Below, one piece after another: positions 2,236-63,747 of a stretch of DNA of 64,000 nt. A program made the translations under genes and the position numbers. How positions within the stretch are numbered: position 1 is the stretch's first letter; each line of letters starts with the position of its first letter. The DNA comes from Liolophura sinensis (taxonomy: Eukaryota > Mollusca > Polyplacophora > Chitonida > Chitonidae): the NCBI RefSeq assembly GCF_032854445.1, contig NC_088307.1, forward strand, positions 5,840,017 through 5,904,016. Reading direction: 5' to 3'. Below the pieces are notes generated by a model. It had not been told where the DNA came from. It ran no database searches and saw nothing but the letters and a program-made list of their open reading frames with translations.

Positions 2236-2239
2236 AAAA

Positions 2240-7789: not shown

Positions 7790-8009
7790 TGCCGACAACT
7801 TATAAACCGGCATGTTACACGTTTTGGATACTGATTTCATTCATTCGTCTTTAGCATTCTCTGCGTCTTTCCAAAACTGCTGACTGCTTCTCTTTTCCTG
7901 GATGTCATAATTTTTTACTTTCTTGGTTTTTTGTTTATGTTGAACGGTTTTTTTTTGGAATTGGCTTTGTGATTATTGAACTGCGTGAAACGTACCTTTT
8001 CGTTGAAGG

Positions 8010-8010
<1 letters not shown>
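7790..8010 (+). mobile_element. Penelope-like tail fragment
   Basis: It carries the family's non-coding 3' segment: CCAAAACTGCTGACTGCTTC, then TTTACTTTCTTGG, and AATTGGCTTTGTGATTATTG. The RT part is absent. It ends where a TA/CA microsatellite begins. Confidence 0.55.
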
Positions 8011-8071
<61 letters not shown>

Positions 8072-8090
8072 TCACACACACACACACACA
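8011..8090. repeat. (TA)n(CA)n microsatellite
   Basis: Uninterrupted TA repeats to about 8068, followed by CA repeats. Peptide runs of IYIYIY in this region are translation artefacts. Confidence 0.97.
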
Positions 8091-8445
8091 ATGGTGTCGT
8101 CGATATCCAAGTACATAACGGATTCTTGGCTAGCTTCGTGTAATCAATGACATCAGCGGGAGTGGGGGTGGTGAGGATTGCATTAGGCCTATTCGTCTTC
8201 GCGTTGGTCTTGTACATCGGCAGGCGACCCACCAAAGATATGGGTAAATAACTGTTGTGGGTAAATAACTGCTGCCAGTAAAGGCAGAGTCAGTGTTATT
8301 GGGGAGAGATAAAGGCATACAGTGTTAACCACTGCATGGAACATGATACCTTAAGTATAATGGTGCATTTTCACTCTGCCCAGTTAACCTTTTCCTGCAG
8401 ATAGTTATTAACTTGAAAGCGGTATTACTATGCAATACCCCATTA

Positions 8446-8717
8446 GGGGCCTCCGTGGCTCAGTTGGTTAGCGCGCTAGCGCAGCGTAATGACCCAGGAG
8501 TCTCTCACCAATGCGGTCCCTGTGAGTTCAAATCCAGCTCATGCTGGCTTCCTCTTCGGCCGTATGTGAGAAGGTCTGTCAGCAACCTGCGGATGGTCGT
8601 GGGTTTCCCCCGGGCTCTGCCCGGTTTCCGCCCACCATAATGCTGGCCGCCGTCGTATAAATGAAATATTCTTGAGTACGGCGTAAAACACCAATCAAAA
8701 AAAAAAAAAAAAAAAAT
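8446..8717 (+). mobile_element. SINE family 1, complete copy with target-site duplication
   Basis: It starts with a tRNA-like head (A box TGGCTCAGTTGG, B box GTTCAAATCCA), continues through the conserved central domain (GGTCTGTCAGCAACCTGCGG, GGGTTTCCCCCGGGCTCTGC) and the tail TTGAGTACGGCGTAAAACAC, and ends in a pure A run. The 10 bp TACCCCATTA flank it exactly (8436-8445 and 8719-8728), so this is a recent retroposition. The central domain resembles the deeply conserved Nin-DC type of animal SINEs; that name is from memory and was not aligned. Confidence 0.92.
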
Positions 8718-8728
8718 TACCCCATTAA

Positions 8729-10390
8729 GTATAGCACCAAAAGCATAAGATAACACATATCCCGTCATCTCAGGTTCGATCCTCTCATACAACTTACATG
8801 CCAATGTGCATGTAAACGTATACACCTTTTTGCAAGATCGTTGCCGGTTTTGGGCAGGAATGAAAGAACGAAGCGTTACATAACTTGGACCCGAAATCTC
8901 GTTCTTCAGGTCTTCCAAATGTATATACATATGTAATACACTGGCAAATTTAGCTTGAAATGGTTAAAGTATGCTGAAACATCTCACTGAGCACAGGCAT
9001 GTTTATTCAAAGAAGACAAATCCCCTCCCGTGAGTTAATCGCCCTAATCAACACGAAAGCACGACTGTGGTGTACGTGTATAGGGTGTTTACAATTCGAT
9101 TTTGATTTTCATCTTTCAGTGAAAGGAAAGATAAGAAAATGGAGAATCAAAATGTGAAATAAAAAAATGGCCCAATTTCACTTGAGGGTTTTAGTATCCT
9201 TACAAGCTGAAATATATGGGCCCAACACAGGTATAGAGGTACTTCGCCTCATTTGGGAATACACAAAAAGCAAAGGCAACTGGAAAAGGTAAAGCGGTAC
9301 TGTACAAGACAATATGAAACAAACGTTGGAAAATGTTCATATACGTTATATGCTGCGATAACAGTGTATATTTCTCGTGTTTGATAAAGCTGGATCAATA
9401 ATCTAGATGGTTCGATGTGCATAGATTGTCACATATTCCTGATCTTGAGTGAATGAGCATGGCTTAACACCATATCGACAGTATTTCAGCCATATCGTGG
9501 TGAACCAATTCTTTAAGTGAATTAGTCTGTTGCATTCAAGGTGATAGCCCTCATTCCATATCAGGTGTAAAGTTTGTTGTACGTCTTCAGGTACACGAAA
9601 CCTTATATGTACATAAATTTCCGGCATGGTCAGGTACATACACTGCTCCATGTACGAACGCTAACATTACACCGCACGACCCGGCAAACAGCAGACCACT
9701 GGGGGGCGCCAGAACATAAATAAAGACTTATCGGCGACCGGCTTAGGTTTGTGTTTGCGATTTGTATGTATGTACAGATCGCACGAAGAACCCTTCAAGA
9801 TGGATTAGGTACACTTTATTAACGTGACTGTGTTGCTGTGAGGGTAGATGACTAACAAAACCTGTAATTGTAAGTCGTTTCATAAAACGCTCATAGGTTA
9901 TCCTTTCTTACTGATCTAATTGATCAGTTATTACATAATAGTGACAAATATCAGATATTAATTAGCACTTACAGTCTGTCCAGTATTATTAGTCCACGTA
10001 AAATCACCAGGAATTGATTTTGGTGATGAAATACTGACCACCTGCTATGTAAAGGGATAATCAGAAGATTGTCCGTTTGTACGGGTTTATTTGCTCAGCC
10101 AATTTACACTCATCGGTGATAGACGCCGGCATGTATCGTCTCGAAGAATTGCAACTAGAGTTCTATACTCTGACTTCATCTTCTTTGTATCATGAACGGT
10201 TATACTCCCGGATGTGTACATCTTACAAGACTATATGTAGTTTCTGCTCTAGATGTGTGTACCACAATTTTTGTCCACTATCTTTGCTGTAAAAAATACA
10301 GACGTCCAACTTTGTTGCTTATTTAATTATCATATTAGCGTTTTTACCGTAGTAAAGAATATTCCCGTCATATAATGGCGATCAGACCTA
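8729..10390. other. Long stretch with little recognised
   Basis: No gene was recognised. The only repeat-like piece is 9440-9525, which has GCATGGCTTAACACCATATC then TATTTCAGCCATATCGTGG. This is the tail of a third SINE-like family seen again at 18885-18970. Small open frames here look like chance. Confidence 0.4.
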
Positions 10391-10400
10391 TGCAGTGGTG

Positions 10401-10423
10401 GACGAGCCACCTCATATCATCAA
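10401..10423 (+). repeat. 23-bp direct repeat, left copy
   Basis: GACGAGCCACCTCATATCAT plus CAA, exactly repeated at 11440-11462. The two copies bracket the Crypton-type recombinase fragment and the palindrome. Confidence 0.85.
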
Positions 10424-10470
10424 TTATTATACACCTAAGTGTCCAGCGCCTACTGTATTATGCAGTAAAT

Positions 10471-10507
10471 ACAACTGTCCAATATTTTTAATACATTGGA
10501 CAGTTGT
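10471..10507. repeat. 13-bp inverted repeat hairpin
   Basis: ACAACTGTCCAAT and its exact reverse complement ATTGGACAGTTGT are separated by 11 bases, just ahead of the recombinase fragment. Its role is unknown. Confidence 0.8.
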
Positions 10508-11110
10508 AACTGTGACGTCACAGGCACGGACTACTTTTCGTTTGTCAACAAGCAGACGACACAAGCACGGCTGCCGATCAATCAGATTCTGACACTTTTG
10601 ATCTCACCGACGCTGAAATTTGTATGTCCAGAAAAATCTGTGTCTCCGGACAGTCCGTTCTACCTCACACCAATTCCCGAATGTCGCTTCAAACCTGATG
10701 CAGCTGTGTGGTATTACTCCACTCCAATGGGAGAGCATCGTTTGGGAGAGCTAATGAAGAGGGCAGCCGAGGCTGTTGGACTGAAAGGCCGGAAAACTAA
10801 TCACTCGGTCCGAAAAACAACCGTCCAAACCCACATAAAATTATGCAGGTCACCGGACACAAATCCCTTGCTAGCATCCAGGAGTATGATTCTAAATTAG
10901 ATCACGTAGAGCAGAAGCATATGTTGAGTTCAAGTGCACATAAACGAAGTTTTCACGACTCCGATGCCATCAACTTCCGCACAGAATCCCAAGGATAATC
11001 AGCTAACTTTGTCAGCAAACTCTACTTCTCTTTCGTCCTCATCCTGCAAAGATTACACTAGTCTGTTCGGTGGCGCAGTTTTCAATAACTGCACTTTTAA
11101 TTTGCACTGA
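10496..11110 (+). pseudogene. Crypton-type tyrosine recombinase, C-terminal part, frameshifted
   Basis: The first frame gives DSPFYLTPIPE, PMGEHRLGELMKRAAEAVGL and TNHSVRKT. The last supplies the His-x-x-Arg box typical of tyrosine recombinases. After a frameshift near 10840 the sequence continues as MQVTGHKSLASIQEYDSKLD, with the GHK motif and a candidate nucleophilic Tyr. It ends near 11110 with SLFGGAVFNNCTFNLH and a stop. This arrangement matches the Crypton-derived recombinase family found in animals as DNA transposons and as host genes of the KIAA1958/QRICH1 type. The N-terminal half is missing and the frame is broken, so this is a dead fragment. The assignment is from motifs only. Confidence 0.7.
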
Positions 11111-11347
11111 AACGTCGGCATTTCTTTTCTCTACTCTTCTGTTTGTATAATACCGCTTCGGCCAGGTGCGCCTGATCCAGTTTTCTGTCAGCCAATGAAA
11201 GTACTCCATTCAGTATTCCATATTCATCCGCAACCGCCTATCCGCTATTGTTACGCGATATGAAATAATTAGCACGGTTTTACCCAGTTTGTTCAGCGTT
11301 CGAGTTTATTTACTTGCGTTTTTGACAAGTGAGTGTATAATAAATAA

Positions 11348-11427
11348 GTTATTGGATTGTATGGTCCTGCATGGACGAGTCCTGGGCGCCCAGGACTCGT
11401 CCATACAGGACCATACAATCCAATAAC
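11348..11427. repeat. 80-bp zero-loop palindrome
   Basis: Two 40-bp arms meet at 11387/11388 (CCTGGGC|GCCCAGG) with one mismatched pair (11370/11405) and no spacer. It could extrude as a cruciform. It may be a transposon-made foldback, or an artefact of library or assembly folding. Confidence 0.95.
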
Positions 11428-11439
11428 CTATAAGTACCT

Positions 11440-11462
11440 GACGAGCCACCTCATATCATCAA
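11440..11462 (+). repeat. 23-bp direct repeat, right copy
   Basis: Exact copy of the 23 bp at 10401-10423. It starts 12 bases after the palindrome. Confidence 0.85.
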
Positions 11463-11684
11463 GTACCTTAAAAATCTCCTGACATAATGCCGCTTCCGAA
11501 CCAACCTGTGCTGGAATAGAGCACGCGGCCTTATACACAAACCTAGCGATCTCCAACAGAGCCCATCAGGTCACGCAGCCAGCAATTAATGCTTTTGAAC
11601 TTTGTTATTATCATAAATAAACAGGGGGGAAATTCTTTCGAAATTGGTTGTTGAGACACCGGGTATGACATCTCGTTTGGACAG

Positions 11685-11945
11685 TTATGGTTTACTGACA
11701 CCGGAGATGGCACCAGGATTTCACTGTTACAGTGTACTGACACTGGACATGGCATCACGATTTCACTGGTACATTGTACTGACACCAGACATGGCACCAC
11801 GATTTCACTGTTACAGTGTACTGACACCGGATATGGCACCACGATTTCACTGGTACATTGTACTGACACCGGACATGGCACCACGATTTCACCGTTACAG
11901 TGTACTGACACCGGACATGGCACCAGGATTTCACTGCTGACACCG
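11685..11945. repeat. 42-bp minisatellite
   Basis: About six units of CTGACACCGGACATGGCACC plus ACGATTTCACTGTTACAGTGTA, with alternating variants GGTACATTG and TTACAGTG. The unit length is a multiple of three, so long frames stay open on both strands without coding meaning. Confidence 0.92.
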
Positions 11946-46161: not shown

Positions 46162-46425
46162 CCGTGAAGAGCGCTCAGTCCCATTCTCATTCTACTGAGC
46201 ACAATGGCCACCGTGAAGAGCGCTCAGTCCCGTTCTCATTCTACAGAGCACAATGGTCACCGTAAAGAGCGCTCAGCCCCATTCTCATTCTACAGAGCAC
46301 AATGGTCACCGTGAAGAGCGCTCAGCCCTGTTCTCATTCTACAGAGCACAATGGTCACAGTGAAGAGCGCTCAGCCCCATTCTCATTCTACAGAGCACAA
46401 TGGTCACCGTGAAGAGCGCTCAGCT
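46162..46425. repeat. 49-bp minisatellite abutting a LINE
   Basis: Five full units and a part: GTGAAGAGCGCTCAGTCCCA + TTCTCATTCTACAGAGCACA + ATGGTCACC. It ends exactly where the minus-strand LINE RT C-terminus begins, so it may derive from the LINE 3' end. Confidence 0.93.
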
Positions 46426-48790
46426 ACAGATCTCAAATAGAAAATCTCCATATTCAACAGAAGACCCTATCAAGCCAAAATATAGTGTGATCATACACTT
46501 TCTAGTAAGTGTTCGCCTGGCCCGACTAATCATACTCAATTTCATATTACTTGTCTTAACTATAGCTCCTACATGCTCATTCCATTTACCATTGTGTTGC
46601 AGAATAATTCCGAGATGTTGATGGGACGGAACGCTCTTCACATCTACGCCATCTAAATACAATCTCGGATGTGAGGGATTATTTTTCAATGATATTAAGA
46701 GATAAACAGTTTTGGTAGCATTAAATGACACAAGCCATTGACTAGCCCAGTTGGATAGACGTTCAGGATCACGATTAAGTTTAGCCTCAGAAGTTGTTGA
46801 ATCTAAAATTTCTTCAGACAAGGATGTGTCACCTGCAAATACTTTAATATTACATTCAGTATTCATACTAATATCATTGGCAAAAATTAAGAAGAGAAGT
46901 GGACCCAATACAGAGCCTTGTGGGACACCAGCATATATTGGATGAGTTTCGGGCTCGTTAAGGCAAACCTTAATTTTTCTGTCACACAAATAATCTTTTA
47001 ACCACGCAAGTAGAGGATCTTCAATACTCAACTGCTCTAACTTAAACAAGAGACCAACATGCCAGACTTCATCAAATGCCTTACTGACATCTAAAAATAG
47101 TAAAGAGGTGTCATTTCCACTGTCAAGACTTTTGTATATGTCATGAACAATTTTTAAAAGCTGGCATACAGTCGAATCCCCACGTTTAAATCCAGAGTTC
47201 TGTGGTATAAGAAGATTATTTGACATACAATACTCACACAGATGTTTATACACGACCTTCTCCAAGACCTTAGAAAGAGAGGGCTGAAGCGACACTGGTC
47301 GATAATTAGAAACGTCATGTCTATCTCCTTTTTTAAATACAGGACAGACTCGAGAGAGCTTCCATGCTGCTGGAAAGACAGCTATCTGTAAGGAATAATT
47401 TAAAAGATTCGTTACGGAAGCTGCAACACAATCAGCAGAATTATTAAGCATGAAGTTGTTTATACCATCAGTAAGTGAGGCTTTCCGTGTATTCAGGGTC
47501 TCAAGGAAATGTTTAATCTTAGTTTCACAGGTCTATACAACTGAGACGTGATACTGTAACATACGTAAAAGGTGGCAAGGCAGGCACTGTGTGGTGAGGG
47601 GCCGGCTGAAACGCATTCTGATGAATTTACAGAATGAAAATGAATTCGCCTTTTCAACGTCAATTGACACATTTTTGCCATTGACAGCAAGAACAGGAAT
47701 AGGCGGTTTTGCTTTCGACCCTAATAGAGATTTCATTATCGATCAGTATGTTTTTGTATCCAGCTGGGGGTTGGAGAGTTTACCTTTTAAATCTGTGGAG
47801 TAACGCAGTATTGCTTGACGTTTAGCATTATTGGCCTCCCTTCTAGATATATAATATCGAAACTTATCCCATCGGACTTAGTCCGTTTGTATTATTTGAA
47901 ACAACGATTCCTCACTCGTATCTTATACCGAGCATCGTTGGTCATCCAAGGCTTGTCACCTGGTCTAATAGTGACTTTCTTATTCGGAACACATTCATTG
48001 CAACATGACAAAAACAAACTGTTCCAGACAAATTATTTGTCATTCACGTGGGAGAAAATATTACCAACGACATCAAATGGCGTAACAGAGAGAAGATTGC
48101 GCAGGCCATACCAATCGGCCATTTAAAGTCCCACACATGTCTTACAAAAGCCTTTGGTTTATCGTTACATAAGATGTTTATAGTGCAATAAATAGTACAG
48201 TAGTCGAGATTAGCCATTGGTGAGGCAAGTCCGTAGTCAATTTTATAACCAATACAATCCGTTATGAATAAGTCCAGTACATAAGCAGCAGCATCAGTAT
48301 ATCGAGTGGATTTATTAATTAGTTGAAAAAGATTTTTCCCAGCTACCATATCATAAAGGCTCATTTTCAATTCGCTCAAATCGTGGTATTTTTCCCGATG
48401 TAGACCCGTTATTAACATGGCATCGGGATTTTCTTTTTACATTGAAGTTAAATTTTTTTCCAGATTACTTAAAAAAAGCTCATGTAAATGAGACGCTTTT
48501 GTTATTCTGTTCCACCATTATCCATAACATCTCACTGCCATTCTCTAAATCCTTACGTCTAGTACTATTAGGAGATTCCTTGCAATACATTTCCACCTCC
48601 TCCGTGTCTGTCTTTTCTTTTAGTACAATACCTATCTAGATTAACAGTATCATCAGGAATATCACCACTAAGCCAGGTTTCTCTCACACATATAACATAA
48701 TTATATTCCTGTGTTAATACAGTGGCATTTCATCTAACTTAAAGTAAAACGACAGCTGATCATCATCTTGGGCCAATAAACTCCGGGCAT
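46420..48790 (-). mobile_element. LINE (endonuclease + RT), longest RT frame, dead
   Basis: Minus strand. The endonuclease N-side is near 48690-48560 (YVICVRETWLSGDIPDDTVN, then KRKDRHGGG) and its C-side near 48420-48100 (LFQLINKSTRY, YVLDLFITDCIG), frameshifted. An RT frame of 343 codons runs at 47451-46420: FPAAWKLSRVCPVFKKGDR, ISNYRPVSLQPSLSK-type block (VSNYRPVSLQPS), FLDVSKAFDEVWH, GVPQGSVLGPLLFLIF, and FAGDTSL where FADDT is expected, so one catalytic Asp is Gly. The RT ends with YFGLIGSSVEYGDF. The clade is jockey/CR1-like by motif style. It differs in sequence from the LINE at 35-37.6 kb. Confidence 0.88.
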
Positions 48791-50839: not shown

Positions 50840-51825
50840 TGGGATGCCATTCATCAAAAGTTTCCGCAACAGTGGAAGAAATAGTCGGTAAGCGACGTGA
50901 GATACATCAGCCACAAGATGGTGGAAACGTGTGAGACGTTGCAAAACGGCGCCGATGCCGGGGACGATGGAAAGTCCGCCAAAGACACAGGTTGTGGACT
51001 TCGAACTATTCCGCGTGTGCAGAACCGAATCTGTGGAATTGCAGATCGTGTCCTCCAGCGAATGTTTGGTCGACAAAATAACTGAACAAGATACCAATAT
51101 TGTTCCCAGACCTGAAGTGATCGATCAACCCGGGAGGTCCACAACCAAAGATGACTTGGTTGTGGAGGACATTGAGGACTTCAGCCGGGTTCAGCTCTGG
51201 CCCTCACCTGCCGGGTCGGAGATGGATTTAAACGTGGAAAGAAACATCGCAGACAACTGAAAGGGCAACACTCTTGATCCAGTCACATCAGATATACCTC
51301 ACACTGATGTCGACCCTAGTAGTGACGGGGAAACATGTCGAGGATAATGACGGGTTGTCCAACCGCTCCTCCGTGTTATCTAAAAGAGATACCTCCCCGT
51401 TGAGTACGGACAGATACCCGAGAGATTGCCCTGAGGCTGCCCTTCCCTTTACCAGTAAGACCGTCTTAAGCGACTTGTCTGTCCCATGTGTGAAGGGATC
51501 CCTTCCAGACGTTTTCAGGCTCCGCAGGAAGAAAGTCCGAAAAGCTTCCCGGTCAGCTCGTGATTTCCGACAAAAAAATAAGTCAAGGGCATTCTCGAGC
51601 AATCGCAGAAGAGCCATTGGCTCTCGAGGGGTTTGGCGGGCTCCCGATTTGGCAGCAGTCCAGGATGTGGCACTCCCTGGTGTTCTTCAGGAAAATCCAA
51701 AACCCGACAAGGTCTGCCTAGAAACGTGGATGAAGCGACGTCTGAAGGAGGAGGAGGAGAAGAAAAAAAGATCGGAAATGATTTTGTATCGAAGAATTGT
51801 GGAGATAATCGTATATTTTTAGTGA
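50840..51825 (+). CDS. Unrecognised coding-like region (two or three exon-like open pieces)
   Basis: It has higher GC content and more regular codon usage than the flanks. A possible first exon at 50844-50889 (MPFIKSFRNSGRNS) ends at a GGTAAGC-type donor. An open piece at 50931-51260 includes SSSECLVDKITEQDTNIVPR and an acidic TTKDDLVVEDIEDFSRV. Another, at 51274-51822 in a different frame, is basic: FRLRRKKVRKASRSARDFRQ, RAFSSNRRRAIGSRGVWRAP, ending in a charged helix MKRRLKEEEEKKKRSEMI. The change of frame means an intron, a break or two genes. No domain is recognised. It could be an accessory gene of the adjacent Polinton or a host gene. Confidence 0.35.
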
Positions 51826-52947
51826 TTCAAATTGGGGAAATTTTGGGGTTACAGGATTACTGGGATTTTGTCAGGCAAGATGCTGATCATATGTATTGAG
51901 TGAATTTCGACAAGCATTGGGAAAGGAAGAAAAATTATCAAAGAACGATTTAATACATTAACTGATTATTATATACAACCGTCATAAGAGAATTTGAACA
52001 ATTATAGCTTTAACACCATCAGTTCTAAGCAGGAAGCCTGCAAACTACTATCTACAAACTAACGGTAAGCCTTGGCCCAGTGAATAGTCGGGGTCATTTA
52101 ATAGACAGAGATATTCTACAGAGTTCAATGTCTGGACAGAATCGCTGGCGTGAACATAAGTGAAACAAGAGCATGTGCACTTCGAGGTTGTGTACACCTG
52201 TAGTACATGTAACACAGAGTAAAGACACAGTCATATTGTATATAGGAGACAGTGTAGAAATGGTACAGAGGGATAAGTATGACACACTGTCACGTACTCT
52301 GTGGTAAACAAACCAGTATCATACAGTATAACGATACTACGGTAGATCGACCGAGTGGTACTAGTGCATTATTGTTGAACTCGACTTGTGAAACGCTGCA
52401 GCATACCACTTTACAATACAGTAGTTGATTATGAACAGCTGCATTTGTAAAGACTTTCGCACATGCGTTTTCGGTACATATACAGAATTATCACATAATA
52501 ATTTCAGAACAATCTTACAAATGGCTTTTTTCCATCAACTCTTACTATGCACATGTAGTATGTGTTAATGTGTACACATTCAAACGTCCTCAGATTTATG
52601 GACAATTATTGTAGTATCGCCAGTATCGAGTGAGCGTGTCCTAATAAACACCTCTTCTGCTATGTATATATGTAATATATGTATATATGTCTAATACTGA
52701 CAAGCCTACCCTGCACCGGCTGCACCGACTGACCTGCCTGCCTACCTCCCAACCACCCTGCATTGAAAATACATAAGTAACACCAATACATTATACATAC
52801 ACACAAGAAAATTTGGTGGGTGTTTTCCACACCGCGGGGTGTATGTGTATAGACTAGCGTGATATAGCGTGTAGTAGACTAGAGTACAGTATAACAGTAT
52901 AACAGTATATGGGATGTAGATATAGATAGATAAATAGAGAAAACAGT
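51826..52947. other. No gene recognised; second copy of the 42-bp repeat
   Basis: 52619-52660 repeats the 42 bp seen at 45266-45307 with about one difference. The rest, rich in TATA/TAGA runs toward 52950, shows nothing recognised. The left end of the Polinton may lie in or just after this stretch, but no terminal repeat could be fixed. Confidence 0.4.
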
Positions 52948-53107
52948 GGTTTGTTTGTTTCAGGCTGGGTATAAATTAGGCAAAGTTTTAAGTAACTCTA
53001 AGTTTTAGGTATGCATGGTTTGTTTGTTTCAGGCTGGGTATAAATTAGGCAAAGTTTTAAGTAACTCTAAGTTTTAATAAGTAACTCTAAGTTTTAGGTA
53101 TGCATTA
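52948..53107. repeat. 69-bp tandem duplication with a nested 22-bp duplication
   Basis: 52948-53016 and 53017-53107 both start GGTTTGTTTGTTTCAGGCTG and continue GGTATAAATTAGGCAAAG. In the second copy the piece AAGTAACTCTAAGTTTTA is doubled. Confidence 0.92.
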
Positions 53108-53169
53108 GGTGGAGTAGAAGGTTAGGAAGACTTTGAGGATTTGGGATAAAAAAAAATATCAGAACAAGT

Positions 53170-53297
53170 ACAATTGTACAATTAAAAAAAAAATGGGAAG
53201 ACTGTGTCTGGTGTGGGGTTTCTTTTCTTTCTTTTTTTAGTGCTTAGATTGAGAAAGTACTCTTTCGGGAAGAGTTGGGTGGCCCTGAAAAGGGCCG
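53170..53297. repeat. Inverted repeat arm (left), ~125 bp, containing the RING gene 3' end signal
   Basis: Near-identical to the reverse complement of 60088-60222. Shared text runs from TTGTACAATTAAAA through GGAAGACTGTGTCTGGTGTG and TAGTGCTTAGATTGAGAAAG to the GGCCCTGAAAAGGGCC stem. The main differences are in homopolymer runs and the processing element. Confidence 0.93.
53262..53296 (-). terminator. Histone-type 3' end signal of the RING gene (stem-loop, ACCCA, U7-type element)
   Basis: The minus strand has GGCCCTTTTCAGGGCC (53296-53281): a 6-bp stem GGCCCU/AGGGCC with a UUUC loop. This is the replication-dependent histone mRNA stem-loop consensus. It is followed directly by ACCCA, then a purine-rich GAAAGAG about 13 nt after the stem, like the histone downstream element that pairs with U7 snRNA. 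It lies about 116 nt after the end of the RING frame. No AATAAA is seen on this strand within the next few hundred bases. Confidence 0.8.
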
Positions 53298-53411
53298 TTG
53301 GAAAAAGTGCTGTTTGTTTTTTTTCTTTTTTTAAAGAGCCATGTTTCTTTTTTCTTTTTTTTTTTTTTCAAACAAATTCACACGAAAACAATTAAAAAAC
53401 GAGACATATAA

Positions 53412-54614
53412 TTAATAAAATAAACGAACAACACGTAAAATATACAAATTACAGAACGGACACCGCTGTGGGTCCAGTCTGCGGGCACAGGTGAGACAGA
53501 TCGCCGCATGCCCGCAGGGTAGGAGGCATGCACCCGACGGTCTCTCATAACAAATCCGACAAGTCGGAAAACCGTCGGGTACCTGTCCCCTACCCGGCGA
53601 GAACGCCACAAGCCCCTCACCTGCGCCCGGTCCAGGTGCGACAGGTGGTGCTGCTGGTGGTGGTGTTGACTCCGGTGGAGTGGTTGTTAACGGTATCCCG
53701 CCAACCGCCGCGGGGATGAGAAACCATTGTAGGGGCGGTTGAGCTCTTAACCGCTCCTCCACATTTCTAACTAGGCTGTTACGTTCCTCACTGGTTAGGT
53801 AATTGTCATTCCCGAGTTCGGCTGTGTGGAGCGGCATGTTGGGGTGAGCTCTAACCACCCCTACTTCCCTAGTCGGGGTAGAAGGCAAAGCCTGGGCTAG
53901 GGGTGATGGTAACCGGTTCTCATCCTCACGGCGGTCACGGCTGGTGTCCCGTGGTTGGGGTGGGACCCGGGCTGTAGGGCGGGTCGAACTCCTCTCCGAA
54001 TCCAGACGTGCTCGGGCCCGACCCCGGCGTGCCGTCAACCACCCAGGTGATCGTGGTGGGGTTGTTGTTGGTACAGGTGATGGGAGTGATGGGGGTGATG
54101 GTGATCTTACCCGACCCGGGTTTGAACTCCCCGCCGAATCCAAATTCAGTTGCCGGGGGAGTTCCCGACCAATACCCCGCCCCACGGGAGCCCTCCGTGT
54201 TGTAAAACGCTCCATGCGTGTTTGGGTGAGGCGGGGTGTCTCCGGCGTGTTGTTGTTGTTGTTGGTGGTGGTTATCTCCTGGAGTCGATTGCCGTAATTC
54301 CCCCGCCCTATCTCCACTTGCCAACCAGCTCTTCTACCCATACACCGTAGGCAGGGGCAGGGACGGAGGTTTCTTCCCTCTCCGTCGGGTGGTGGTGACG
54401 GCGTATTCGGGATGATGAGGATTGGAGAGGCTGGGGGTGATGGTGTCCACGGTTCTTCGTCATCCCGGTTAGAAGAAGAAGAAGACTGGTCTTCATCCCA
54501 TTCATTCCTTCGCTCCTCCCCGACACTCCCAAAAAATTGCGGGCCTGATGATTCATAGCGTAGTGATGTAACGGTAAAACTGAAGTCAAGCAAATGTCGT
54601 AACAGTCTGATCAA
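53412..54614 (-). CDS. Polinton RING-finger protein (IAP-type RING), probable E3 ubiquitin ligase
   Basis: An open frame of about 400 codons. The N-terminal three quarters is low-complexity, rich in Pro, Ser, Arg and Thr (WTPSPPASPILIIPNTPSPP, repeated PTTTPPRSPG-type runs) and probably disordered. The C-terminus is a C3HC4 RING: CRIC, LLPCGH, ICLTC, CPFC, then hydrophobic NLYILRVV. The spacing and the LPCGH...C..C pattern are those of RINGs at the end of IAP proteins, which ubiquitinate apoptosis regulators. No BIR domain is present. The exact start is not fixed. It is divergent from PolB and ends in a histone-type 3' signal. It is an accessory gene; a role in blocking host cell death or defence is inference. 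Confidence 0.8.
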   Translation of the reverse strand: MIRLLRHLLDFSFTVTSLRYESSGPQFFGSVGEERRNEWDEDQSSSSSNRDDEEPWTPSPPASPILIIPNTPSPPPDGEGRNLRPCPCLRCMGRRAGWQVEIGRGNYGNRLQEITTTNNNNNTPETPRLTQTRMERFTTRRAPVGRGIGRELPRQLNLDSAGSSNPGRVRSPSPPSLPSPVPTTTPPRSPGWLTARRGRARARLDSERSSTRPTARVPPQPRDTSRDRREDENRLPSPLAQALPSTPTREVGVVRAHPNMPLHTAELGNDNYLTSEERNSLVRNVEERLRAQPPLQWFLIPAAVGGIPLTTTPPESTPPPAAPPVAPGPGAGEGLVAFSPGRGQVPDGFPTCRICYERPSGACLLPCGHAAICLTCARRLDPQRCPFCNLYILRVVRLFY

Positions 54615-56001
54615 CTCAAACCCGCGGTTATGTTATATATACTAACAACCCTGGCCTGGGCGAAAGCACGACAAAAGGAATTATCAGCCCACTGATTGGA
54701 TGATGAGTGTAAAAAAACGAGCGGGCTTTTATGTTTTTCTCCCGCCCGTTTCATACAGAATCCTCAGCCTGGTAGAGCTGTGCGCGTGACGCTACATTGT
54801 TGTCAGCCGGGTTGTGTTCAGCTCGCCTGCTATGTATACCGACATCGGCTGGTGGTTGTGATTTCTACGTGTATAAGTGTCAATTGAATAAGTGGTCATT
54901 GTAGGCTTAGATGTCTTCTTTCTCCCCGAACCCGCTTTGCTTCTTGAAAGTTAATTGAAGACAGTAAGAGCTATCGCATGTTACATGTTTGTAACAGTAT
55001 ATGAAAAGTATAAAAAAAACTTCTTTACTGGATCATATGCAATAAGACATGCTGCATTTCATTGCTGAAAATTACTATTAAAAAAGGGACTGGGTCAGTG
55101 TGTCAGTGTGTCATGCTAGGGCTGCTATCTACCGGAATGGTTCCTATGTATTATGTATTAAAAAAAATTTTTTTTAGCGGATTGACGCTTCATTTTAATT
55201 AGTAGATTACCGCATAAAGTAGTTGTCTATCGGTCACCTTCAGACGTTGTTGTTGTTTCCAATTAATAAATATTACGTAATATTACGCTTCGTATTCGCT
55301 AGATTTCTTATGGGAATAACAGTAGTTTTAGTTCAATATATTTAAGGATAGTTGTGTCTTTTAATAGTTTGTAACTCCAGTAAAGCTAGATAGAAAGCTT
55401 AAGTAGCTTAGAGGATATTTCCTTATGTATTTCGTAGTAGAAATCCACGAATGCGCGCGATGTCAAATGTATGTAAACAAGGGGGATAACTCCTGATGGA
55501 ATACGCTTAGCAGGGGTGACTACTTTTGTTGGAATAACGGAAATAAGGGGCATAACTCTAAAGGTCAAACGACAATACGTGTCTGGAAAGAGTAATATAT
55601 ATATATAGTCATTTTCTTTATTTTTTGTTCCAAAACTGTATAAGGGTTTTGCAGAGTTAACAATTGTATCAGTATATATATCTATATATATAGATTTATT
55701 TCATTTAGTTCATATTTGTGTAAAGCAAACTCATGTCACAATTCATTTAAACACATTGTATGACTTTATTTCACTTAATTTACAATATCCCATGAAAAAT
55801 TAATTATGATTTGTTGTTATTTAAATCGGGCGCTCATTTACCATCCTTGAGACGATCCCCAATAGTATGGGTCAGTGTGTCAGTGTGTCATGCCAGGGTT
55901 GATATCTATCGGAATGCCTCCTATGTATTATATGTATTATAAAATTTTTTAGCGGAACATATGTACATACGCACATATGTACAATAGTATGTATATAGAG
56001 T
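54615..56001. promoter_or_regulatory. Divergent RING/PolB spacer with a direct repeat
   Basis: A TATA-like TAGTATATATAACATA on the minus strand (about 54630-54645) sits 20-30 bases before the RING frame. Two copies of an ~85-bp direct repeat occur, 55090-55177 and 55867-55953: GGGTCAGTGTGTCAGTGTGT, then TATCTA(C/T)CGGAATG, then CCTATGTATTAT and a TTTTTTAGCGG end. The second is about 50 bp before the PolB start. The spacer also holds TA-rich runs near 55595 and 55675. It probably contains both promoters. Confidence 0.6.
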
Positions 56002-59000
56002 ATGTCTAGGTTTACCTGGGTTATAACGTCTACACCCTTCTATGTTACAGAGACCTGTTTCATCTACCACCACCACCACCACCACCGACGACAACAAACC
56101 CAGCACGAGTCAAGCTCAAGTGAGTTTAGCGGAAGCTACCTCGCTGAAAGAAGAAAAAATGAAAAAACAAAAGAAAAAAGTCCAACGAGCCAGTTCGAGC
56201 CCGACCCGGTACAGCCTCACGAGGCTGTCTTACCGAGCGGTGACAGTGACGTCCTGGAGTTGTACCAGCGGCATTGGCAATCGATCCGAACGCATTTCCA
56301 TCGCCACAAACCAATTCAAGACTGTTATAATTACCGACTGAGTGATCTCGGTGCTATCCCAGCCTATGTAGACGAGATTTACGAAGACCAGCCGACCGCT
56401 TTCACTATCAATTACAGTTTTGGATATATCCTCCGCCACAAAGAGACGGGTCAGGTGCGGTATTATTACCCGAGCACCAACAACACCCGAGTACTCGACG
56501 CACCGTACCGCGTGGCCAGTCGGGCTGACCTGCGAGGATTCCACACCCAGCATCTGCTCACCCAAGACCCGCTTACCTGGGCCCAAAAACAACGCCCCAA
56601 TACGAAATGGACCGTCGACCTCATCACCAACGTGTTGTTTTTCGTCCACAAACTCCCGCATCAGCCTATCGGTAAAGGTGGGGTGACGTTACCCTCTTAC
56701 CTGAAAGGAAACAAGGGGCTACACACGTTGGTGGGTAGAAATAACGGTCCGTACAGGGACTATTTGTGTTTGTTTCGGTGTCTGGCCGTCCATCTAGACC
56801 AGGCCAACCCCAATAACTGCGACGCCCAGGCTGGGGTGTATTACCGCAGGTATCTGGAGGAAATGGAGATGGAGCCGAGGTATTTCCGCGGGGTACCGCT
56901 CAGTGCACTGGACACGGTGGAAAGCCTGTTTCAAGTGAATATTCAAGTCTACCAGCTCATCCCCATGGACAGGTCGTACTCAGCACAACTTATTCACCGC
57001 AGTGCCGAGCGCTATTCTCACCCTACCCTGCGGTTAAACCTGTACCAGCGGCATTTCAGCTATATCAAAGACATGGGACGTTATGCTCGATCTTTCACCT
57101 GCCAGGTGTGCCAGAAGAGTTTCCCGAAACTGTGGGAGTTACGACGGCACGGTCAAACGTGCACCGACGCCATTCGACGAAAGTACCCGGGGGGTGTCTT
57201 CCACAATCAGCCCACCATTTTCGAAACGTTGGCGGACATGGGGATCGAACTCCAGGACGGTGACGACGACATCTTCCCGTACCGAGCGTGTTATGACTTT
57301 GAGGCGTACTTGGCTCCGGTGAACCCGGTGGACGATGCGGCGACTGGATCGACGGAATGGACGGCTCAACACATCCCCATGAGTGTCAGCGTCAACTCTA
57401 ATGTACCGGATTACGACCAGCCCGTGTGTTTCATCTCCACCGGTGACCCCCAGGCACTCGTCGAGGACATGATGGCTTACCTCAACACCGTCAGCGAGAT
57501 CAGTAGCGCCTATCTCCACGAGCGTTATGCTTACATCCTGGACGCCTTAGACGAGCGGATCGATCCCGACGAGAAGAAACCGTCTTACACGCGCCGAGTG
57601 CGAGACAGATTCGTGACCTATATGGACCAACTCCCCGTCCTCGGCTTTAACTCGGGTAACTATGACCTGAACTTAATCAAACAACAGCTTTACCCCCACC
57701 TGGTCCAGAGCGGTGATTTGGAGTATGTGATTAAGCGGAACAATAATCACATGGCCCTCACCACACCGCAGCTGAAATTTCTGGACATTCGGAATTACCT
57801 GGCCCCGAATTACAGTTACGACAAGTGGGTGAAAGCTTACGACTGTCACGTGACCAAAGGGAAATTTTGTTACAGCTACATAGACTCCCTGGCCCGGCTG
57901 GAGGAAACCACACTGCCACCGCAGCATGCTTTCGACAATGATCTCACCCACCAGCCGTGCACGGACGCGGAGTACAAGACCTTACAGACGGTGTGGCGAG
58001 AGCACGGCATGCGGACCGTCAAAGACTTGCTGCGGTGGTATAATAACCTAGACGTCATTCCCTTCATGGAGGCTGCGGAGAAGATGTCGGTGTTCTACCG
58101 AACCATGCATGTGGATGTCTTCAAAGACTGCATCAGCATACCAGGGCTTACCCTCCGCTACTTATTCCATGATTTACGCTCCGTGTTCACCCTCGTCGGT
58201 GAGAAAGACAAAGACATGCACGATTGCCTCAAGAAAAACATCGTGGGTGGGCCGAGCATCATTTTCCACCTCTACCACGAACGAGGCGTAACCCGTATAC
58301 GGGGAGGAAAGCTGTGTCAGCGCATCGTGGGATTCGATGCCAACGCGCTATACCTGTACAGCCTGGTCTCACCTATGCGGGCAGGTCACTGCGTCCGTTG
58401 GCGCCGTCGGGGCGGGGGAGAGAAGTTCGTTCCCTCCGGCACCGCCACCCGTCTGGCTGAAAAATGGCTGGACTGGAAGTCACAGCAGCTGGGGGTATCG
58501 ATCCGTCACCGACTCAATCACACCGAGAAGCGGATCGGTGATCGACAACTCCCCGTAGACGGGTTCGCCTATATCGACGGACAGCCTACTGTGTTTCAAT
58601 TCCACGGGTGTTATTTCCACTATCACGGCTGTCACCTGAATCACCCTCGCCCGGGAAAGGTGTGCTACAACGAGCGGCGGGGATTAAGCCCCCAGGACTT
58701 ACGGCGGGAGGTGGATGCGAACGACGCATACTTTCGCTCCCAGGGCTATCCATTGGTGACGATATGGGAGTGTGAGTTCCACCGCCAACGCGCGACAAAC
58801 CCAGCCCTACGGGACTTCCTACAACAGTACGGTTTACCCCCGTCGCAGCGACAACCCAAGACACAAGCTCAGCTCATGGAGGCTGTCATTCAAGGTCAGT
58901 TGTTTGGATTTGTGGAATGTGACATCCACGTGCCGGACCACCTCAAAGCGGACTTTGCCGATAGCCCACCCATCTTTAAAAACACCGAGGTGAGTCGGGC

Positions 59001-60024
59001 TGATATAGGCCCCACCATGGCAGAGTTCGCGGCTGTGAATGACATGCCCACACCCAGGGGTATGCTGATCGGGAGCATGTTTGGGAAGCAAATTCTGCTA
59101 GCCACACCTCTGCTCCAGTGGTATCTCGGTCGGGGATTGGTCGTCACGCACGTCTACCAAGCGATGGAATACACACCGGAGCGAGCGTTCGAAGCCTTCG
59201 CAGACGCCGTCACCCAAGCTCGACGGGAGGGGGATGTCGACCCCACCAAAGCCCTGATCGGGGAGACGATGAAGCTGTTGGAGAATTCAGGTTATGGAAA
59301 AACCGTCACCAATCAAGACCGACACGTGGATGTCAAAATCTGCGATCTGGCAAAAACATGAAAATTACTGGAGAGTGTTCGGTGTCGAACCGTCGACCCC
59401 ATCGACGAGACCACCTTTGAAGTGACGAGTAGCAAGAAGACCATTCGCTACAATCTCCCCTTGCAAATAGGGTGCATGGTCTACCAGTATGCCAAACTCC
59501 GCATGCTGGAATTTTATTACGATTTCATGGCTCGTTTTTTCGACAAGGCGGATTGGCAGTACTGTGAGATGGACACAGACTCTGCGTACATGGCTTGGTC
59601 CGACCCAGACTGGGAATCCTTCGTCAAACCCGAGCTGCGAGCCGTGTACGAGACCGAGCGGGATGCGTGGTTACCCCGTCGTGACCATTACGACCACGAT
59701 AAGCGCACACCGGGGCTTTTCAAAGTCGAGTGGACCGGTGATGCCATCGTCAGTTTGTGTTCCAAGACTTATTATTGTTACGGCGGGGCATCCAACACCA
59801 AAGACAAACTCTCCTGCAAAGGTGTGAGCGCACGAGGTGTGGACAAGGCCGTGTACCTCTCTGTGTTGCGCAATCACCAAAGCGCGAGTGGTGTGAATCG
59901 GGGGATGCGGATGCGCGGGAATACGATGTACTCGTATACCCAACACAAAGACGCATTCACATACTTTTACGGAAAGCGAAAAGTGCTCCCCGACGGGGTG
60001 AGCACCACCTATTTAGATCTGTAA
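56002..60024 (+). CDS. polB: Polinton protein-primed DNA polymerase B
   Basis: Replicative polymerase of the element, family B, protein-primed subgroup, over 1,300 codons, as usual for Polintons. The N-terminal region holds a His-rich run and a C2H2-like zinc finger (CQVCQKS...RRHGQTC, near 57100). Exonuclease motifs: YDFEAY (Exo I, 57290), NSGNYDLN (Exo II, 57645) and WYNNLDV (Exo III, 58035). Polymerase motifs: GFDANALYLYSL (A, 58330), KLLENSGYGK (B, 59270) and EMDTDSAYM (C, 59567), then a KTYY (KxY-type) box at 59764. Between A and B lies FQFHGCYFHYHGCH, the Cys/His insert common in Polinton and mitochondrial-plasmid polymerases. All catalytic residues expected are visible. About one break is present, so it is called a fossil gene. 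Its 3' flank carries a histone-type 3' end signal 66 nt after the end. Confidence 0.93.
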
Positions 60025-60087
60025 AACGGTGCTATGGATACTCTACACACCCAGCTCCTGTGCTCTTGTGCTCTTGTGATACTTCCC

Positions 60088-60222
60088 ACGGCCCTTTTCA
60101 GGGCCAACCAACTCTTCCCGAGAAGAGTACTTTCTCAATCTAAGCACTAAAAAAAAAAAAAAAAAAAAGAAACCCCACACCAGACACAGTCTTCCCATTG
60201 TTTTTAATTGTACAATTTTTTT
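60088..60222. repeat. Inverted repeat arm (right), containing the PolB 3' end signal
   Basis: Reverse complement of 53170-53297. Because it is internal to the element, between PolB and the capsid cluster, it is not the outer terminal repeat. It looks like a shared 3' UTR cassette. Confidence 0.93.
60090..60129 (+). terminator. Histone-type 3' end signal of PolB (stem-loop, AACCA, U7-type element)
   Basis: GGCCCTTTTCAGGGCC at 60090-60105 is the same 16 bases as downstream of RING. AACCAACT follows (ACCA close to the histone ACCCA), then purine-rich GAGAAGAGTA starting about 14 nt after the stem, in the place of the U7-pairing element. It begins 66 nt after the stop, within the range seen in histone genes. 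A back-up AATAAA lies far downstream at 60504. Confidence 0.8.
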
Positions 60223-60305
60223 CATGTGTTTTATCATTCGCAGTGGTACGTACGTTAAAAAGTTAAAAACGCCTAGCGGGGGGCGGCGGGCCGGCAGCCG
60301 TAATA

Positions 60306-60466
60306 GCCTGACACACTGACCCGACTTGCCGTGCCTGCTACATCGTCATACATTGTTGCCGAGCGGTGCCTTGCCGGTATACCGCAGACGGCCTGGTAAC
60401 AATGTATGACGCAACAATGTATGACGATGTAACAGGCGGTGACTGGGTCAGTGTGTCAGTGTGCTA
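60306..60466. repeat. Large imperfect inverted repeat between PolB and the capsid cluster
   Basis: Outer arms hold CCTGACACACTGACCCG (60307) and its complement GGGTCAGTGTGTCAG (60445). Inner arms are CTACATCGTCATACATTGTT plus GC (60338-60359) and GCAACAATGTATGACGATGT plus A(A) (60411-60431), one mismatch. The spacer is about 50 bp and has an extra GTAACAATGTATGACG. The outer arm motif equals the core of the direct repeats at 55.09 and 55.87 kb, hinting at a shared bound factor. Confidence 0.85.
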
Positions 60467-60560
60467 TAGCTGGCCTGCATGCTGTTGTGGTAGTCCTCAT
60501 CATAATAAAGAAAAAAGTCAAACCACCACGGTATGTGAGTCTCATAGTCTCTTTTTTAAT

Positions 60561-60566
60561 TTTATT
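60561..60566 (-). terminator. AATAAA polyadenylation signal for the capsid-side gene cluster
   Basis: Minus-strand AATAAA about 100 nt after the protease stop, in ordinary position. There is no histone-like stem-loop after this cluster, in contrast with RING and PolB. Confidence 0.7.
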
Positions 60567-60663: not shown

Positions 60664-61197
60664 TTACAGTCCATGGGTGTGGAAAAAAAACGAGGGATGA
60701 ATCCCAAACTGACGATCCACCCAATCGAACACCCGCAAGTCATTATCGTAGGTCGTGCACGCTGTGTCCAACGTGTGTACAATAGCATCCATGGGACGAC
60801 CTCGAGCTCGCTGGGTTAAGTAATACACACAATATTGACCGCACACGGTCGTGTCCAGACTCTGCAGCCGCCGATCGTTCCACGTCCAGTGGTGTGTTCC
60901 CCGGTTAAGCCAAGCGGTGATATCGGGGTAGAGGGGTGGGAGTCCGTAGGAATCAAAGTATTCGCCCCGGAGATGGGGTGGATTGGACCACTGGTCTATG
61001 AAGACGGCGACCCAATGTCGTCCTGGGCGAAGGCACGTGTCTGTGTTAATGATGCAGGCCCAGGGGGTCCAGGGCATCCTAGAGGCGGGGCGTGAGTTGC
61101 GTGTTGCGTGAGGGGAGTGAGGGGAGATGATCCCGAGGGTAGACCCCACCTCCCACCCCCACCACAGCCCGGGTAAACACGTCTGTTTGTAGCACAC
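60664..61197 (-). CDS. Polinton adenain-like (C5/Ulp1-type) cysteine protease
   Basis: Capsid-maturation protease of the adenovirus/Polinton kind. The catalytic His is in GRHWVAVFID, the acidic residue in EYFDSYG, and the Gln and Cys in CGQYCVYYL. These lie in the usual order and at the usual spacing. It is the last gene of the minus-strand cluster, 42 bases after the major capsid gene. The N-terminal part is not cleanly resolved and the gene probably carries about one break. It would cut precursor capsid proteins in the particle. The call rests on the motifs. Confidence 0.85.
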   Translation of the reverse strand: MCYKQTCLPGLWWGWEVGSTLGIISPHSPHATRNSRPASRMPWTPWACIINTDTCLRPGRHWVAVFIDQWSNPPHLRGEYFDSYGLPPLYPDITAWLNRGTHHWTWNDRRLQSLDTTVCGQYCVYYLTQRARGRPMDAIVHTLDTACTTYDNDLRVFDWVDRQFGIHPSFFFHTHGL

Positions 61198-61239: not shown

Positions 61240-62478
61240 TCAACTGGCGAAGTCGCAGAGCACGTTTCGGCTTTGGTCTATTTTTATGATATTGCTGAAT
61301 TCAGCGTAGCACACCACGTTAATGGTTTCCGGCAGTGGTTTGGCAAACCGCATCTCCAGGCGCAAATCCCCTTTTTGTACCAGGTTCAGTTGGTGGTCAT
61401 CGTGGAGGCTGGGGGTCGCTTTCCCCGTGTGGGTAAAGAGGTTCATGTACGTGCGGATGAAATTCTCGTTCTCAAAGTCGGGTGTCAGGGGCTTGGTTGG
61501 AATCTGACGACCGCCAACGTACAAGGCGACGAAGTTTGTGTAGTAGTGTCGGAAACGAAACGGGTTTTTAGTGTAGTCCCCGTCAAAAGCCTTGTTGCTC
61601 ACACACCCCACCACTAAACGTGTCGGTAAGCTGCCCAGAAATAGGTTTTGTTCATTGATGAGGGTGTGACCTCTGGGGACAGAGAAATACTTGGTCAGCA
61701 CGCGGCGGATTGGGTACTTGGCAGGAGCTTTGGCCAAGGCTTTCAAATGCCCCAGTTGCACACCGCTGGTGATTTTCACTTTGCGCACAAAGATCAAGAC
61801 CTCCTCCAAGCGAGTCTTGTAGCCGGGAGCGGCTTCATCGGACATCAAAGCAAACGAATTCTTAGCCGGGGTGAGACGGATGCGGACAGTGACGTTGTTA
61901 AGCAGGTGTCGGTGTTGTAGGAACATGTCACAATGCAGGCGACCCAGCATGTCAACCGACCGACTTTCAGCCGTGCACTCCAGCCGATCGACAAACCCAT
62001 CGTTGGTGTCAGTCATCGTGTCAAACTTTCCTGGAGTGTCCGCATACCACAAGGCAGCAGACAGCTGGCTCTTTTTAGCCTCTTTACCGTAAGACAACAA
62101 TGTCTCCAAGTAAGCCCGGTATGGGTACATGTTGGTGGACGGCGTGATGAGTTTATCGTTCAGGGAGACGTCTACCTGTCGCCACATGGATTGTATCCAC
62201 AGGTTAGTCGGAGCCACCTTCTTGTCAGCCGCCACAGCCGTCCCGTCCCCGTTGAGGATTTTTGCTTTCACGTACAGCATGGTGTTGGCCAAGTCCAAGT
62301 AAGTGTCTGCGTCAGCGTTGGTGATGACAAATTCTACAGGTCCCACATCACTCAGGCTGGCGATGGGGCTGTAAGCATCCCAGCGGCCTTCTCGAACGCT
62401 GGTGTCGGTCGGGGGTAAGGTCCACAAATCAAACTCACTGCTGACGGACGGGCAGCACTCGGGGTGGGGAAGAGCCAT
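61240..62478 (-). CDS. Polinton major capsid protein (double jelly-roll, hexon type)
   Basis: A 412-codon open frame from an ATG at 62478. The start is MALPHPECCPSVSSEFDLWT, then PVEFVITNADADTYLDLANT, SMWRQVDVSLNDKLITPSTN, YPYRAYLETLLSYG and VRIRLTPAKNSFALMSD, and the C-terminus has NVVCYAEFSNIIKIDQSRNV. This is the family seen in animal genomes as transposon-derived F54H12.2-like proteins and recognised as the Polinton/adintovirus major capsid protein with two jelly-rolls. Length is slightly short of many relatives. It lies 31 bases after the core-like gene and 42 before the protease, same strand. The frame is open throughout. Confidence 0.85.
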   Translation of the reverse strand: MALPHPECCPSVSSEFDLWTLPPTDTSVREGRWDAYSPIASLSDVGPVEFVITNADADTYLDLANTMLYVKAKILNGDGTAVAADKKVAPTNLWIQSMWRQVDVSLNDKLITPSTNMYPYRAYLETLLSYGKEAKKSQLSAALWYADTPGKFDTMTDTNDGFVDRLECTAESRSVDMLGRLHCDMFLQHRHLLNNVTVRIRLTPAKNSFALMSDEAAPGYKTRLEEVLIFVRKVKITSGVQLGHLKALAKAPAKYPIRRVLTKYFSVPRGHTLINEQNLFLGSLPTRLVVGCVSNKAFDGDYTKNPFRFRHYYTNFVALYVGGRQIPTKPLTPDFENENFIRTYMNLFTHTGKATPSLHDDHQLNLVQKGDLRLEMRFAKPLPETINVVCYAEFSNIIKIDQSRNVLCDFAS

Positions 62479-62509: not shown

Positions 62510-62974
62510 TTAGCTGAAAATATCCGGTGGATTCAGGGCATTCGATGTGGCTCGAGCTTTAATGTGTCTTCTTCTGGGCTTGACGGCACGTCTTTTAAGT
62601 CCCACGTGTCTGTGACGTGTGGGCGTGACGCGCGGTGTCTTCCGTTTTATAGGCTCACCCAGTAACCGCTGTCGGGCGTAGCGACTAGCTTTGACCAGCA
62701 GCTGTTTTCCAGTCGCCAAACCGCGTCGTTTCAAAGCCTGTTGTGGTGACACGCCCCCACTCAGCACGTCCCCCACGACTTGCAGTCCGGTTCGTAACGC
62801 CGTTTTGCCCAGTGCTTTCACAGCCGGTGAGGTTAACAAGGGTTGTGAGAGGAGTTTGCTGAGACCGCCCAGCAAACCGTGACCGCGCTGGACAGCCACA
62901 CCCCGAAACACAGGTAAGCCACCTCCGCCGGCTTGTTTGGTGTAATAGTCGATGTAAGCCTGCTGTGATGCCAT
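62510..62974 (-). CDS. Polinton small basic core-like/minor virion protein
   Basis: 154 aa, strongly basic at the C-terminus (KRKTPRVTPTRHRHVGLKRR, KPRRRHIKAR), with a Gly-rich N-terminus (AGGGGLPVFRGVAV) and a hydrophobic/amphipathic middle (GLLGGLSKLL, ALGKTALRTGLQVVGDVLSG). It resembles adenovirus core or pVI/pX-type proteins in size and charge. Strings such as LLGGL resemble adenain cut sites (L-x-G-G-x), inference only. The start ATG overlaps the stop of the upstream gene as TAATG, so the two are probably cotranscribed. Confidence 0.7.
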   Translation of the reverse strand: MASQQAYIDYYTKQAGGGGLPVFRGVAVQRGHGLLGGLSKLLSQPLLTSPAVKALGKTALRTGLQVVGDVLSGGVSPQQALKRRGLATGKQLLVKASRYARQRLLGEPIKRKTPRVTPTRHRHVGLKRRAVKPRRRHIKARATSNALNPPDIFS

Positions 62975-63747
62975 TATTGCAAGGGTAAAGCACGCCGCTG
63001 TCGAAAGTGAAGTGTCACCACCACTTTACCGCGTTCAAATACGACGGATTGACCCGTGTCGTCCCTAATATCAATGTCCACCGTCGAGAAATGTTTGGAC
63101 TGCACGGGGATGTATTCCACGTGTTGGAAAGTCTTGGAGACGTGCTCCCCATACTGCCCTTCCGTGGTAACCGTCCGCAACAGCGGGGCCAACGTGTCCC
63201 CCACCACACGCGGTTCGATAATGTCTGTGTACACGTACAGCGTGGGTGTGCTGATCGTTAAATCCTCGGCACCGACATACATGAGGTCCGCCGGTCCCAT
63301 GAGCCATCCGTACGGTAAATTCATGAGTTGCATTAGCCGTGGGCTGAAACCAAGCCCCAGTGGTTTCTCAAACCGCACGCTGTATTTCCGCTGCATATCG
63401 TCGAACTCAAACGTTAAGTCCCCGGCGTGCTCCTGGAGATCGCGGATCTCTGTCTCGCTTAACAATTTGGTCAACCCCCAGGCCAGGTCTTCGGGTGTCG
63501 GGTAGTAGCCGGCTGGTAATACGAGCTTATGCGTACCGTGGTGAGAGTCCTTTGGGGAGTCTATGGTATACCACACTTCACCTGTCCGCACGTTAAACCA
63601 GGTCCGGGGATACTGTATTTCGACCAGCCCACATTCCCAGTCACCTGTCAAATGGATGGGGCGGGGTAATTGGGTGGTGAAACGCGTCAAGGTATTGTTG
63701 GGGAAGTAGTCCAGCGAGCTGTTACTGGGTAGCGTCACGTAAAACAT
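62974..63747 (-). CDS. Polinton penton-like/minor capsid protein
   Basis: 257 aa, first gene of the minus-strand cluster. N-terminus MFYVTLPSNSSLDYFPNNTL then DWECGLVEIQYPRTWFNVRT; middle LMQLMNLPYGWLMGPADLMY; C-terminus VHV-like SKHFSTVDIDIRDDTGQSVV. The FYVTLPSNSS...LVEIQYP signature is shared by a group of animal Polinton proteins placed next to the major capsid gene. Penton assignment follows position and family, not structure. It overlaps the next gene by one base. Confidence 0.65.
   Translation of the reverse strand: MFYVTLPSNSSLDYFPNNTLTRFTTQLPRPIHLTGDWECGLVEIQYPRTWFNVRTGEVWYTIDSPKDSHHGTHKLVLPAGYYPTPEDLAWGLTKLLSETEIRDLQEHAGDLTFEFDDMQRKYSVRFEKPLGLGFSPRLMQLMNLPYGWLMGPADLMYVGAEDLTISTPTLYVYTDIIEPRVVGDTLAPLLRTVTTEGQYGEHVSKTFQHVEYIPVQSKHFSTVDIDIRDDTGQSVVFERGKVVVTLHFRQRRALPLQ

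Follow-up and report, generated by a model that had tools for sequence, protein, structure and literature searches.

In a chiton, Liolophura sinensis, two divergent genes of a Polinton/adinto-type mobile element, one for a RING-finger protein and the other for a family B DNA polymerase (PolB), are each followed by a 3'-end signal of the type found in replication-dependent histone genes. The element lies in a 64,000-nt stretch of contig NC_088307.1 (hereafter the window), which ends at position 64000; the right end of the element is outside it. The presence of a histone-type signal on the right strand and in the right place behind both genes is supported by Rfam matches and by the sequence controls described below. 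Most likely, this is an acquired host-type module that works behind RING and PolB as it does behind histone genes, a reading that we rate marginally better than even. The components of the two sites, including candidates for the histone downstream element (HDE), are as follows.

53281-53296, minus strand: histone-type stem-loop behind RING, 6-bp stem, TTTC loop (exact 16-mer, Rfam)
53255-53301, minus strand: Rfam RF00032 Histone3 match, 39.0 bits (gathering score 34)
53260-53266, minus strand: HDE-like GAAAGAG containing AAAGAG, 14 nt past the stem (sequence; PMC7026596)
53259-53275, minus strand: second hairpin of 6 bp covering the HDE-like core, -4.7 kcal/mol (folding)
60090-60105, plus strand: stem-loop behind PolB, identical to the RING one (exact 16-mer, Rfam)
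60085-60131, plus strand: Rfam Histone3 match, 32.3 bits, below the gathering score
60120-60127, plus strand: HDE-like GAGAAGAG (sequence)
60111-60128, plus strand: second hairpin of 7 bp, -8.0 kcal/mol (folding)

A search allowing up to two mismatches found the 16-mer GGCCCTTTTCAGGGCC twice in the window, both times exactly, where 100 dinucleotide shuffles of the window contain it 0.03 times on average. The stem is separated by 115 nt from the RING stop codon and by 65 nt from the last position of the PolB frame (60024); it is followed by ACCCA at the RING site and AACCA at the PolB site, and the purine stretch starts 14 nt past the stem in both copies. These measurements bear out the original prediction, made from the letters of the window, with respect to the identical perfect 16-mers on the correct strands, their distances from the stop codons (about 116 and 66 nt), the two flanks, and the purine stretches 13-14 nt downstream. 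The RING site has the 6-bp stem, the 4-nt U-rich loop and the above-gathering score of a Histone3 element (E 6.6e-08; Rfam E-values are given as computed by the program, over both strands multiplied by the number of families). The combination of a 6-bp stem, a U-rich loop, an ACC-type flank and, about 14 nt further on, a purine core, all soon after a stop codon, resembles the 3' end of metazoan replication-dependent histone mRNAs (RF00032), which is handled by the stem-loop-binding protein SLBP and U7. The chiton sites differ from it in standing behind DNA polymerase and RING genes of a mobile element and in having a predicted second hairpin over the purine core.

Of the three stem-loops in the window that combine a perfect GG-stem with a pyrimidine loop, only those at the RING and PolB sites are accompanied by an ACC-type flank together with a purine core. 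The mouse H2a HDE has AAAGAG as its purine core (PMC7026596), and 0.59% of window positions have this hexamer 8-20 nt downstream; it is present in the RING copy (offset 15), and the PolB copy has GAAGAG instead (offset 16). In the IMG/VR database, two exact histone 16-mers occur in 76 stretches (65 + 11), many of which are near-identical relatives, so that fewer than 76 are independent, and one of which (L003) ends 9 nt past the stem. None of the 76 passes the ACC-type flank test, two (L029 and L052) have a run of purines at the distance expected of an HDE, and the 18 scanned with Rfam gave no Histone3 match at gathering scores. Since the 16-mer alone is found in phage-type contigs that lack histone flanks, the information is carried by the flanks. 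One IMG/VR contig contains the 16-mer twice in opposite orientation, with like near flanks and no histone-type flanks (L004 5523-5538, L026 13592-13607). Another reading is that the chiton hairpins are histone-like by convergence and act as DNA or RNA in a different role, for instance in replication or packaging, in recombination of one inverted copy with the other, or simply in blocking transcription. Two adjacent hairpins per copy, their inverted arrangement and a palindrome at the far end of the surrounding block would fit such a role, as would the occurrence of the same 16-mer in IMG/VR contigs, often with T-rich, terminator-like flanks; however, convergence leaves unexplained why loop, flanks and purine core jointly fit the animal histone signal, and we regard this reading as quite improbable.

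Both sites are parts of one larger repeat.

53172-53303, minus strand: left copy of the duplicated 3'-end block (alignment)
60083-60217, plus strand: right copy of the block, 91% identical, inverted (alignment)

Aligned in transcript sense, the two copies (approximately 135 nt) agree in 125 of 137 columns, and six of the seven gap columns fall within A or T runs. The block starts 7 nt ahead of the stem and extends past the predicted cleavage site and the HDE-like core to a AATTGTACAATT palindrome 109 nt after the stem. Both modules are most likely accounted for by one acquisition and one duplication. A retrocopy of a mature histone mRNA is ruled out, as the common block continues beyond the cleavage site; its extension to 109 nt past the stem indicates a copy made at the DNA level.

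We propose that the element gained one host-type module, consisting of the SLBP stem-loop, the cleavage flank, a purine core to pair with U7 and roughly 90 nt of DNA beyond that, first behind one of the two divergent genes, and that the module was then copied in inverted orientation behind the other. When the element was intact, SLBP and the U7 small nuclear ribonucleoprotein would have bound the pre-mRNAs of RING and PolB, which would have been cut about 5 nt past the stem without addition of poly(A), and both messages would have peaked in S phase. The structural genes on the other strand have AATAAA behind them. RING runs leftward and PolB rightward from a common intergenic region, with the duplicated block after each, an arrangement reminiscent of histone genes paired in divergent orientation, and the two are presumably early genes.

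Several observations weigh against a working signal. Two independent sites are ruled out by the single inverted duplicate that covers both, contrary to the original prediction, which counted them as independent and concluded that chance was very unlikely; chance is thus excluded as the source of a single event, and the argument cannot be counted twice. Identity within the block is as high outside the signal as within it, and thus the pair of copies cannot demonstrate selection on the signal. These features suit a captured flank without function, that is, a chiton histone 3'-end fragment that recombined into the element as DNA and was later duplicated. The continuation of the block to 109 nt past the stem marks it as DNA and not a copy of mature mRNA, its identity is not concentrated on the signal, and Polinton-like viruses (PLVs) hold captured host rRNA genes that are likely non-functional according to the authors (PMC12220804). 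Nonetheless, two separate genes each have a copy in sense orientation shortly past their end, the repeat starts near where the functional unit does, 7 nt ahead of the stem, and no histone coding remnant lies alongside either copy; we consider a captured flank unlikely. Insertion of the element into a host histone cluster was also considered and rejected, as no histone coding sequence was found in the window (best tblastn E 0.51).

Further points on the same side concern the strength of the signal and its occurrence elsewhere. The PolB site remains under the Histone3 gathering score of 34 (32.3 bits, E 2.1e-05). The predicted pairing with human U7 is weak, at -8.9 kcal/mol for both copies, a value equalled by 36 and 68 of 1000 shuffles. 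The spacer 3' of each stem pairs with the purine core (-4.7 kcal/mol at RING, -8.0 at PolB), and the resulting second hairpin, absent from the Histone3 model, could by this folding hinder U7. The expected retention of the stem-loop in related elements was tried on one distant relative, contig L001 (described below), and failed there, with no Histone3 match in L001 at E values of 5 or less; this contig is, however, remote, with a PolB of only some 40% identity and with its genes on a single strand. Finally, the window copy of the element is decaying.

The remaining evidence against histone-type processing comes from the transcript models. The NCBI protein P0246 from L. sinensis is identical to the window RING protein (100% over 319 aa), a match that makes this species very probably the host, and its model covers 54578-53622 and then ends in a C-terminal VFLTFYST with codons near 53130; the apparent last intron, placed by this mapping at about 53621 to 53131, would excise both the RING finger and the stem-loop. 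The model has an apparent splice from CAG/GTGAG within the coding region, across the RING finger (53130-53621, minus strand). Among the paralogues, P0247 leaves the frame where P0246 does, P0248 ends one residue later, and P0249 reads on into the RING finger and leaves the frame near its end; given the behavior of P0247, these sequences suggest that a RING isoform lacking the RING finger may exist. Histone-type processing and splicing are described as mutually exclusive (PMC3661734). In the window, RING can be read as an intronless frame up to its stop codon and the PolB frame contains a single stop, but the NCBI RING model has apparent introns on both sides. PolB has an AATAAA at 60504 on the plus strand, 399 nt past the stem. 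In favor of histone-type processing, the minus strand behind RING contains no AATAAA from the stop codon to 52501, and a single ATTAAA (53078-53073). The original prediction that the element borrowed the histone 3' route is supported as to signal, strand and placement by the Rfam matches and controls. The element may use the route, but the RING model apparently spliced over the stem-loop and the AATAAA downstream of PolB speak against exclusive use.

The same transcript evidence would agree with dual 3' ends, in which most of the transcripts undergo splicing and/or polyadenylation at a later site and only cycling cells make use of the stem-loop, as reported for H2A.X and some human H2A/H2B genes. 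The RING model apparently spliced past the stem-loop and the AATAAA at 60504 have parallels in the spliced poly(A)+ RNAs of human HIST1H2BD and HIST1H2AC (PMC3661734) and in the dual processing of H2A.X (PMC7807067). Against this, the RING gene model may be ab initio or derived from poly(A)-selected RNA, which would miss histone-type ends, and we consider dual ends unlikely. The published Liolophura genome, which appeared as L. japonica before the species name was corrected (PMC12441733), was accompanied by sequencing of poly(A)-selected RNA (PMC11068029); hence, a lack of histone-type ends in that work would mean little.

The genes of the element and the neighboring poly(A) signals are listed below; identities are to the counterparts in L001.

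53412-54341, minus strand: RING-finger open reading frame (ORF) of 309 aa, the open frame reaching further upstream; zf-C3HC4_3, 4.2e-11 (ORF, Pfam)
56002-59361, plus strand: PolB ORF (DNA_pol_B_2), terminated by an in-frame stop (ORF, Pfam, relatives)
59476-60024, plus strand: C-terminal rest of the PolB frame past the stop, with no Pfam match alone (ORF, same frame)
60504-60509, plus strand: AATAAA that may serve PolB as an alternative poly(A) signal (sequence)
60561-60566, minus strand: AATAAA past the end of the protease gene, which may be the poly(A) signal for the structural genes (sequence)
60664-61077, minus strand: adenain-like protease, 44% identity, no Pfam match of its own (homology)
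61240-62478, minus strand: major capsid protein, 46% identity, without 24 residues aligned there (homology)
62510-62974, minus strand: small basic virion-type protein, 46% identity over 89 positions (homology)
62974-63747, minus strand: penton-like minor capsid protein, 40% identity (homology)

By its gene content, the element is of Polinton/adinto-type: its protease, its capsid protein, and its small basic and penton-like proteins all have counterparts in L001. The Polinton/adintovirus morphogenesis set is represented by capsid, penton-like and adenain-type protease proteins with 40-46% identity to their L001 counterparts; the match of the L001 protease to Peptidase_C5 is under the cutoff of that family. 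PolB is a viral/organellar-type B polymerase, putatively protein-primed (PF03175, 1.2e-06), with 1436 relatives at E <=0.001 among 7993 proteins scored; those with names among the 120 listed come from echinoderms, amphioxus, sea anemone, coral and one gastropod. The capsid protein has a predicted structure with a mean pLDDT (predicted local distance difference test) of 78.6, and no match was obtained for its profile among PDB sequences or for the protein among phage records. Likewise, Pfam gave no match for the longer protease frame, the C-terminal PolB piece and ORF 51307-51822. Transcription of the structural genes is leftward, in the direction of PolB, and the AATAAA at 60566-60561 (minus strand) comes after them.

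Decay of this copy is indicated by the broken PolB frame (ORF 56002-59361, then 59476-60024 in the same frame), by the absence of 24 capsid residues that are present in L001 and in the L. sinensis proteins P0126 and P0127, and by the RING start, where the start residues of the paralogues' protein lie in another frame. The RING search found four proteins, all from L. sinensis, among the 7993 candidates scored, which were those sharing the most words with the query. Because the RING relatives P0247-P0249 and the capsid relatives P0126 and P0127 are on contigs other than that of P0246, the element has sister copies.

L001, from the metagenome-assembled genome (MAG) of a bacterial symbiont of the tubeworm Escarpia laminata, was the sole relative among 57 pattern matches when the PolB alignment was compared with genome contigs. 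It encodes PolB, penton-like, small basic, capsid and protease proteins as in the chiton element, the last four in the same order; in contrast to the chiton element, it has these genes on one strand. L001 also encodes an rve/chromo integrase and an Adeno_IVa2-like ATPase. Its positions 1-11769 form a Polinton with the core gene set, which was filed under the endosymbiont MAG and is probably contaminating host DNA. Among viral contigs, searches by PolB, the PolB alignment, the capsid protein and the capsid alignment yielded no confirmed relatives, and nothing matched the DNA patterns with animal-type flanks.

Other repeats adjoin these genes. A foldback, MITE-like stretch (miniature inverted-repeat transposable element) at 60295-60472, with inverted repeats I4 and I7, separates the PolB stem-loop from the protease gene that converges on it, and related GGGTCAGTGTGTCAGTGTG repeats lie near 55091, 55868 and 60441. 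Tandem repeats at 52947-53105, with 61 bp at 69-bp spacing and a shorter related third unit, stand immediately left of the RING 3' block. Further left is a retroelement with a reverse transcriptase ORF (46420-47451, minus strand; RVT_1, 4.6e-28).

The original prediction knew of no earlier description in Polintons or adintoviruses, a statement that needs one qualification. An Rfam scan of 8300 PLV and virophage genomes recorded six histone 3'UTR stem-loops (PMC12220804); the main text of that report counts them without position, gene, host or function, whereas the chiton stem-loops are behind two named genes of an animal element. Among the matches listed for the open-licence PMC literature, there was no further account joining Mavericks, Polintons, adintoviruses, transposons or viruses with the histone stem-loop. 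We tentatively propose, at somewhat less than even confidence, that some animal Polintons end the mRNAs of their replication genes via the SLBP/U7 histone route. Such transcripts would be non-polyadenylated, S-phase-limited, non-histone animal mRNAs of this class, with the polymerase timed to host DNA synthesis. If true, a mobile-element polymerase gene under a histone 3'-end signal would be a second kind of gene to use it, the transcripts of the element would be missed by poly(A)-selected RNA-seq, and the arrangement would suggest how an element could confine its polymerase to S phase.

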